A stretch of 64,000 nucleotides of DNA, from contig CALUUN010000003.1 in the NCBI GenBank assembly GCA_944323995.1, forward strand, positions 62,001-126,000, written 5' to 3'. The notes under the pieces are model-generated. The model was not told the DNA's origin, ran no database searches, and saw only the letters and a program-made list of their open reading frames with translations. This stretch comes from Candidatus Gastranaerophilales bacterium. GTDB taxonomy: Bacteria > Cyanobacteriota > Vampirovibrionia > Gastranaerophilales > Gastranaerophilaceae. Position numbers and translations under genes: made by a program. The first letter of the stretch is position 1. Each line of letters opens with the position of its first letter. Shown one piece after another: positions 31,696-33,389 of this stretch.

Positions 31696-31698
31696 AAT

Positions 31699-32147
31699 AC
31701 CCTCCCTTGAGGGGAGGGTGGAAATCTACGATTTCCGGGAGGGTGATTATGAATAAAAAATATCCAAAAATTTCTATATCAAATGCAAAAAACTTAAGAA
31801 CTAATGCAACAACTCCTGAAAAAATATTATGGACATATCTCAGGAAAAGCAATTTAAATAATTTAAAATTTAGACGGCAACAGCCAATAGGTCCTTATAT
31901 TGTAGATTTTCTGTGTTGTTCCCGTAAAATAATTATTGAACTTGACGGAGGACAACACAATATGTCTAAAAATATTGATTATGACAACATTCGTGATAAC
32001 TTTTTAAAAGAAGAAGGCTATACAGTCATTAGAATTTGGAATAATGATATTATTAAAAATATTGACGGGGTAATTGAATTCTTACAAGACTATACTAAAA
32101 CACCCACCCCAAAATCAAAGATTTTGACCCTCCCCTCAAGGGAGGGT
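31699..32147 (+). mobile_element. DUF559 element 1, bounded by perfect 21-bp inverted repeats
   Basis: The left end (31699-31719) is itself a hairpin, ACCCTCCC-TTGAG-GGGAGGGT, and the right end (32127-32147) is its exact reverse complement. Inside each end lies a second hairpin: GGAAATC-TAC-GATTTCC on the left and CAAAATC-AAA-GATTTTG on the right, and then a G-rich or C-rich tract. AAT flanks both sides, compatible with a 3-bp target duplication. The enclosed 450 bp encode one DUF559 nuclease domain that reads through into ispE. Confidence 0.75.
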
Positions 32148-33389
32148 AATAGAAATATCAAAATTCAATGTCCGGCAAAAATTAATCTTACGCTTAAAAT
32201 TACCGGTAAACGCCCTGACGGATTCCATGATATTGAAAGCGTAATGCAGACGATTAATCTTTTTGACTACCTTACGATTTCAACCGCGGCAAACGGCAAA
32301 TTTGAGATTAATCTTTCCGGAACAAGCAGCGAAATACCTTATAATGAAAAAAACCTTGTCTATAAAGCGGCTTTGCTTTTTATTGAGAGAACAAATCTTC
32401 AGCCGTGCAAAATTAATGTTTTTATTGAAAAAAATATTCCGGTTGCAGCGGGACTTGCAGGCGGCAGCACTGATGCCGCGGGTATGCTCTACGGTTTGAA
32501 TAAACTTTACGGTGAACCTTTGAACCGTTTTGAATTGCATGAACTCTGCGCAAAACTCGGTTCGGATTTGAATATGTGCCTTGAAGGCGGCAGGCAGAAA
32601 GCAACCGGCAGAGGAGAAATTTTGGAAAAATTGCCGTTTGAAGAATTTGAAGTTTCTTTAATAAAGCCCGTTAATCTCGGGATAAGCGCAAAAGACGCCT
32701 ATACAAAGTTTTCCCGAAAAATGGAAAGCAATTCTTCCCCTGCGGATAAAACAAAGCCCCCCACCCCAACCCTCCCCCTCAAGGGGGGAGGGGGAAAACA
32801 TTCCCATAAATACAACCGTTATGCAAAAGAAAAATCTGCAATATTACGGAAAAATATGACGGATGCTGAAAATAAGTTGTGGTATTATATTCGAAAAGAA
32901 CAAATAAACGGTTTAAAATTCAGGAGGCAACAGCCAATAGGACCTTATATAGCGGATTTTGTTTGCCAGAGTTTAAAGCTGGTAATTGAACTTGACGGCG
33001 GTCAACACAATGAGGAAAATTATCAGGAATATGACAGTGAAAGAACTGTTTATCTTGAAAAAGCGGGTTACAAAGTTTTAAGATTTTGGAATAATGAAAT
33101 ATTTGAAAATATAGAAGGTGTCACGGAAAAAATCAGCAATTTCGCGAATTCCCTCCCCCCTCGAGGGGGAGGGTCAGGGTGGGGGGCAACCGCCTTTTTG
33201 AATGATCTTGAATGGGCTGTGATTGATGATTACAAAGAATTACGGCAGATAAAAACTCTCTATCCCAATTCTGTTATGTCAGGTTCAGGTTCCACTTACT
33301 TCGGCATAGGTTTTGAATTTGAAAAACAGCCCGATTTCTGGGTGAAAAATAATTTAAAATCCATTCCGTACGGGGTGAAAGAAGTCTAA
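31749..33389 (+). CDS. ispE: DUF559-IspE-DUF559-IspE composite: CDP-ME kinase interrupted in frame
   Basis: 546 residues in one open frame. Residues 1-120 are a DUF559/Vsr-like PD-(D/E)xK domain (FRRQQPIGPYIVDF, IIELDGGQH). From residue about 138 IspE begins (CPAKINLTLKI, ATP-site VAAGLAGGSTDAAG). At about residue 337 a second DUF559 domain (IADF, VIELDGGQH) is inserted, and IspE resumes with TAFLNDLEWAV and NSVMSGSGSTYFGIG. Removing 435 nt would rejoin the IspE halves in frame. The start ATG 31749 has GGAGG 6 nt upstream, supplied by the element end; IspE has no ATG of its own in frame. Whether the kinase is functional is open. It makes 4-diphosphocytidyl-2-C-methylerythritol 2-phosphate in the MEP pathway. 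Confidence 0.88.
   Translation: MNKKYPKISISNAKNLRTNATTPEKILWTYLRKSNLNNLKFRRQQPIGPYIVDFLCCSRKIIIELDGGQHNMSKNIDYDNIRDNFLKEEGYTVIRIWNNDIIKNIDGVIEFLQDYTKTPTPKSKILTLPSREGNRNIKIQCPAKINLTLKITGKRPDGFHDIESVMQTINLFDYLTISTAANGKFEINLSGTSSEIPYNEKNLVYKAALLFIERTNLQPCKINVFIEKNIPVAAGLAGGSTDAAGMLYGLNKLYGEPLNRFELHELCAKLGSDLNMCLEGGRQKATGRGEILEKLPFEEFEVSLIKPVNLGISAKDAYTKFSRKMESNSSPADKTKPPTPTLPLKGGGGKHSHKYNRYAKEKSAILRKNMTDAENKLWYYIRKEQINGLKFRRQQPIGPYIADFVCQSLKLVIELDGGQHNEENYQEYDSERTVYLEKAGYKVLRFWNNEIFENIEGVTEKISNFANSLPPRGGGSGWGATAFLNDLEWAVIDDYKELRQIKTLYPNSVMSGSGSTYFGIGFEFEKQPDFWVKNNLKSIPYGVKEV
32757..33186 (+). mobile_element. DUF559 element 2, inserted inside ispE
   Basis: Imperfect 36-bp terminal inverted repeats, 32757-32792 and 33151-33186, match at 33 of 36 positions and include the palindromes CCCTCCCCCTCAAGGGGG and its counterpart with TCGA. 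The enclosed DUF559 domain shares FRRQQPIGPYI(V/A)DF and (I/V)IELDGGQHN with element 1. CAA occurs on both flanks (32752-32754 and 33187-33189), compatible with a 3-bp target duplication. Ends are translated as PPTPTLPLKGGG and LPPRGGGSGWG. Confidence 0.75.

Follow-up and report, generated by a model that had tools for sequence, protein, structure and literature searches.

A palindrome-bounded DUF559 nuclease element carried in frame within ispE of a Candidatus Gastranaerophilales bacterium: a probable homing-like mobile element

The ispE gene of a Candidatus Gastranaerophilales bacterium carries, in frame and in a variable loop of the encoded protein, a nuclease gene bounded by inverted palindromes. 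We consider it probable that this insert is a non-splicing, homing-like mobile element in which a DUF559 nuclease of the EDxHD/Vsr type is placed between inverted REP-like palindromes. The finding is real and belongs to a widespread class. The element would work like a homing element with coding ends resembling those of the Rickettsia palindromic elements (RPEs), and its homing behavior is partly shown; that the nuclease is active and drives the mobility is what we infer.

The core interpretation of an earlier note on this DNA was supported. The note had described a palindrome-bounded nuclease element tolerated inside a coding sequence due to its translatable ends, and had likened it to the RPEs with a nuclease added. 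Both points agree with the empty alleles, the repeated independent insertions in the ispE loop, the variety of other host genes and the presence in other phyla reported below. A possible kinship of the nuclease with an EDxHD homing endonuclease and the evidence for transfer between cognate sites are additions to that note.

The fused ispE gene

The window, the whole stretch of 64,000 nucleotides analysed here, belongs to a genome of 1.75 Mb with 99.9% completeness (G000 below). IspE and two DUF559 domains share one open frame, starting at 31707 (TTG) or 31749 (ATG) and ending at 33389 (Table 1). The two copies of DUF559 (PF04480) jointly scored 266.8 bits in the Pfam search (E-value 1.3e-80, cut-off 20.6).

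Table 1. Features of the fused ispE frame in the window
Feature	Position	Strand	Remarks
Open frame DUF559(a)-IspE-DUF559(b)-IspE	31749..33389	+	546 aa from ATG 31749; ORF and Pfam scan
Element (a), palindrome-bounded DUF559, joined in frame to the ispE start	31698..32150	+	ends approximate; inverted-repeat score, palindromes
Nuclease core (DUF559), element (a)	31794..32087	+	
IspE 5' part, to the variable loop after ISAKDAYTKF	32157..32755	+	alignment of relatives, Pfam, AlphaFold
Element (b), in-frame insert, 432 nt	32756..33187	+	37-nt inverted repeat; empty alleles in relatives
Left terminal palindrome, element (b)	32756..32792	+	encodes Pro/Gly-rich linker; disordered in model
Nuclease core (DUF559), element (b)	32844..33137	+	Pfam; invariant residues
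Right terminal palindrome, element (b)	33151..33187	+	inverted-repeat arm; conserved vs relatives
IspE 3' part, NDLEWAVIDDY ... SGSGSTYF to stop	33188..33389	+	

The split of the ispE motifs by a block read in one frame, described in the earlier note, was confirmed, with both motifs located within the single ORF and a full DUF559 domain found by Pfam in the block between them. The palindromes bracket this domain, and empty alleles occur in the same genus (see below), so the observation survives the refuting conditions named in the earlier note. The arms of the inverted repeat at the block ends are 37 nt long and complementary at 34 positions (92%), against 36 bp and 33/36 given before. The in-frame nature of the insert stood, but its length is 432 nt (3 × 144) rather than that of a 430-bp block whose removal would take out 435 nt. 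The suggested CAA target duplication was abandoned: the right-hand CAA overlaps the end of the repeat, and the left flank differs among relatives (CAAAG, GATATG, ATAAT, AAATG), while the right flank is nearly constant.

Element (a), which was absent from the earlier note, had an inverted-repeat score of 62, compared to 23 for the best of 20 shuffles, with palindromes at 31700-31718 and 32128-32146. From its nuclease core to that of IspE, a single in-frame ATG, GTG or TTG occurs, namely TTG 32124. Since element (a) is fused to the start of ispE, translation of IspE may depend on ATG 31749, which belongs to the element, or on TTG 32124. Other N-terminal arrangements were observed in relatives. 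In G010 and G013, a truncated N-terminal remnant of an (a)-like element, without the remaining nuclease, reads into IspE in frame; in G003, a single open frame of 730 aa joins rsmA/ksgA, ispE and a DUF559 element; and the IspE proteins of other genera carry other palindrome-like N-terminal in-frame insertions, e.g., HPRPLGERA...PPRGEGE.

A search for a second intact ispE found none. The gene is single copy, with the sole other protein-level match being distant (E-value 6e-7). IspF is also present; therefore, the MEP pathway probably operates, and ispE is presumably essential here.

The ispE loop in relatives

The ispE genes of 59 relatives were located by sequence and not by frame; this survey, as well as that of PriA below, was made by host sequence and is unbiased for the in-frame state. 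No internal stops were found in ispE of the 59 relatives. The alignment proposed in the earlier note revealed empty alleles in the window's own genus, with loops of 42–57 nt in G005, G006, G007, G008, G012 and G015. A related insert was present at this loop in G000, G002, G009, G010, G011 and G014, a different insert in G003 and a short in-frame scar in G013, all of the same genus. On the ispE tree, the pattern of presence requires five changes, four of which are forced by starred branches. A tree of 96 elements gave at least three separate origins at this one loop (the g1 clade, the g52 clade and G003). Because different element lineages share the ispE loop, insert-tolerant loops are struck repeatedly.

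For the fused IspE, an AlphaFold model was built from 30 sequences (mean pLDDT 85, pTM 0.64). The pLDDT values were mostly about 90–98 in the IspE halves, about 80–89 in the nuclease and below 50 in the linkers. The predicted structure, which stops short of proving folding or activity, shows an intact IspE fold with the nuclease domain held on disordered, palindrome-encoded linkers. The best fold matches of the model in the PDB were IspE enzymes, several of them aligned across the insert.

One could suppose that the segment is lost at the level of the mRNA or the protein (as an intron or intein, or by ribosomal bypass), helped by the long inverted repeat, through which the insert might be looped out of the mRNA; the inferred essentiality of the host genes would fit such a device. 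We consider removal highly improbable. No intein splicing (Hint) domain was detected by Pfam in the complete fused ORF or in nine other host ORFs, and the open frame through the insert argues against a group I or group II intron. The ends are open in frame in every ispE and PriA case, which would be needless under RNA removal or bypass, and the scars and truncated remnants remain in frame and are retained.

Insertions in PriA and HydE

The insertion site in PriA is the loop immediately before the Walker A motif. In the window's genus, the loop region measured 114 nt when empty and 546–552 nt when filled, with a difference that is a multiple of three. The gene of G013 is filled, whereas its 97%-identical sisters G009, G010 and G011 have an empty, unscarred loop of ancestral appearance; therefore, the G013 element looks like a recent gain. 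The PriA elements of five genera formed one clade in the tree of 96 elements (support 97/87*), while the filled genes are scattered on the PriA tree, where presence requires eight changes, all eight forced by starred branches.

A local excess of identity was observed in one species pair, G130 and G073, whose priA and hydE genes are about 80–85% identical. In PriA, the element core was 95% identical compared to about 84% farther out; in hydE, the respective values were 98% and 78–82%. The adjoining 100 bp upstream were 98–99% identical, and priA and hydE beyond them 78–90%. The dS value in PriA was 0.23 for the element and 1.33 for the host. In this pair, the pattern has the look of co-conversion during homing (compare PMC2988022), but the element might also have been carried over by homologous recombination alone, with no action of the nuclease. 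In most same-site pairs, e.g., G000 and G002 at ispE or G002 and G013 at PriA, the element diverged about as much as the host, so old inheritance and loss also contribute. Trees constrained to congruence between elements and hosts were not rejected (p-AU 0.12–0.45, with too few sites for the test); therefore, the case for transfer is built on the patchiness and on the local identity.

A pre-existing palindrome in PriA as a landing pad was considered and is not required, as the empty PriA loops hold none. No constant target-site duplication at PriA was seen by eye. The priA gene of G000 has a 30-nt in-frame scar at the insertion loop with element-like ends, ATTACCCC...GGGGTAAT. In G003 and G112, the same loop holds in-frame palindromic inserts that lack the nuclease, possibly non-autonomous forms.

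Other hosts and properties of the nuclease

In 117 genomes of the family Gastranaerophilaceae, there were 79 full-length DUF559 matches (above 100 bits), 32 of them, by our count, in frames of at least 250 aa. In-frame hosts in this family included PriA, an M14 peptidase, PrmA, UvrD/AddA-like helicases and, at the C terminus, a HydE-like radical-SAM protein. Those in other phyla were HsdS (Nitrospira, Binatia) as well as a class-I tRNA synthetase and Mfd (Rickettsiales). Host identities were read from the sequences along with Pfam and NCBIfam; ‘HydE-like’ is our own reading of a sequence that Pfam assigns to Radical_SAM. Since these other-host ORFs were chosen partly for length, the fact that they are in frame is subject to selection bias. 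Carriage by phages or plasmids was considered and found to be rare (3 of 50,697 phage records and 46 of 72,556 plasmid records). PADLOC gave only weak matches (DpdF, mREase_II, HEase) and assigned no defence system. A DNA methyltransferase-like ORF was also observed, in which a DUF559-like domain of a different subtype occurs together with repeated palindrome-encoded peptides.

Residues E9, D38, E49, D51, Q54 and H55 of the DUF559 core were invariant in 18 in-gene elements, and the dN/dS values of the nuclease, about 0.04–0.22, indicate purifying selection. The nuclease profile matched PDB 3hrl with an E-value of 8.5e-34; the match to 3r3p, the mobile intron protein I-Bth0305I, was marginal (E-value 0.0024, 56 of 98 positions). 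In Thermosynechococcus, a DUF559 gene was assigned to the EDxHD homing endonuclease family (PMC9403480).

The strong purifying selection and the intact catalytic residues would also be expected of a domesticated domain, recruited as a functional extra part of IspE, PriA and other proteins. Such recruitment has a very low probability in our judgment, given the patchy presence among sister species, the unrelated host proteins, the varied nuclease lineages in one loop and the scars of loss. The recurrence of the same inserts in many separate genomes, with divergence at the codon level under purifying selection, argues against an assembly or binning artefact; most of the genomes, including those of the nearest named relatives (Ca. 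Gastranaerophilales), are metagenome assemblies, yet we would give this explanation hardly any credence.

Proposed mechanism and known systems

In the usual view, homing nucleases can settle in conserved genes only with the help of a self-splicing intron or an intein. The element described here seems to occupy such genes with translatable palindromic ends alone. We propose that a single polypeptide is produced in the host; the nuclease would hang on disordered linkers encoded by the palindromes while IspE still folds. The nuclease would cut either the empty allele or its palindromes, and the filled allele would then serve as the repair template from which the element is copied in. This would amount to homing without a splicing device. 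In-frame decay would then leave peptide scars in the host proteins. First entry into new genes would be rare and might follow a palindrome-related route. The wider proposal, that these elements make up a so far unnamed, cross-phylum selfish class that homes without splicing, uses its ends also as linkers, spreads at the same sites by gene conversion and reshapes its hosts by scars, has in our view an even chance of being right.

Like the RPEs, the element has palindromic ends and lies in frame in unrelated protein genes, where the RPEs are read through (PMC10969869) and translation would be expected here; unlike them (about 150 bp, encoding a short peptide and no enzyme), it is 432 nt long, encodes a conserved nuclease and occurs across phyla. 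With homing endonuclease genes (the EDxHD enzyme I-Bth0305I, inteins, group I introns), it may share a related nuclease (weak match to 3r3p), and it resembles them in its same-site patchiness and, in one species pair, in localised identity as in co-conversion (PMC2988022). The difference is that no intein was found here, the insert appears to be retained in the host protein, and the cutting is putative. The free-standing homing endonuclease mobE in nrdA of phage Aeh1 (PMC2988022) is likewise a nuclease gene within a vital host gene, but it splits nrdA into separate coding regions, while here there is a single frame with palindromic ends.

Other DUF559/Vsr-like proteins, such as those of the YcjD type (PRK09767) and VsrA of Caulobacter (PMC12907096), belong to the same domain family; the latter source attributes an SOS response, seen in Caulobacter when a methyltransferase is mutated, to a Vsr-like protein with DUF559. 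As far as the accessible portions of the sources go, these proteins are described as stand-alone, with no palindromic element or in-frame insertion. No published link of DUF559 to palindromes or to in-frame insertion was found in the open-licence PMC literature.

Under the proposed reading, one group of coding palindromes would gain a nuclease function, and the widespread, functionally uncharacterised DUF559 family a plausible role in mobility. In-frame insertions and linker peptides would also arise in this way in essential proteins. Mobile DNA that codes for a nuclease inside a vital gene would be an unusual mode of survival for selfish DNA.

Palindromic ends

At 87 of 95 loci, the flanks of the DUF559 gene formed matching palindromic ends, with an inverted-repeat score higher than any of 20 shuffles; among the 51 stand-alone copies, this held for 45. 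In the named genomes, most matched flanks scored 30–110, while shuffled right flanks scored at most 23. The right end of element (b) was 89–97% identical between species, compared to 71–76% for the nuclease codons, over a stretch of only 37 nt. Because the right end is more conserved than the nuclease, the ends seem to matter as DNA or RNA beyond their role as linkers. The genome-wide search for the terminal repeat, suggested in the earlier note, returned 16 sites, four of them element ends and 12 dispersed solo palindromes; the reversed control pattern had zero matches.

Such solo copies, together with one gene lying between two inverted REP-like palindromes, resemble the REP/RAYT (REPIN) systems. 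The Y1 transposase is the defining feature of a RAYT. Here, its place is taken by the DUF559 nuclease, and the element matches only DUF559 and related nuclease profiles, with no TnpA_REP (Y1) match. One may still suppose that DUF559 mobilises dispersed palindromes in a RAYT-like manner (replicative or cut-and-paste), with the in-gene copies as surviving accidents and the same-site likeness as a result of inheritance and loss. This alternative, though the solo copies, the palindrome-flanked stand-alone copies in many phyla and the nuclease-less PriA inserts of G003 and G112 speak for it, we regard as rather unlikely. The PriA elements are a single, patchy clade with clean empty sisters, where more mixing across sites would be expected of a transposing element, and the local high identity occurs at two cognate sites of one species pair.

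The window's genome also contains intergenic mosaics of several palindromes, of the types GTCGGATTTACTAATCCGAC, TGAACTTGTTTCAGCA and CCCTCCC.
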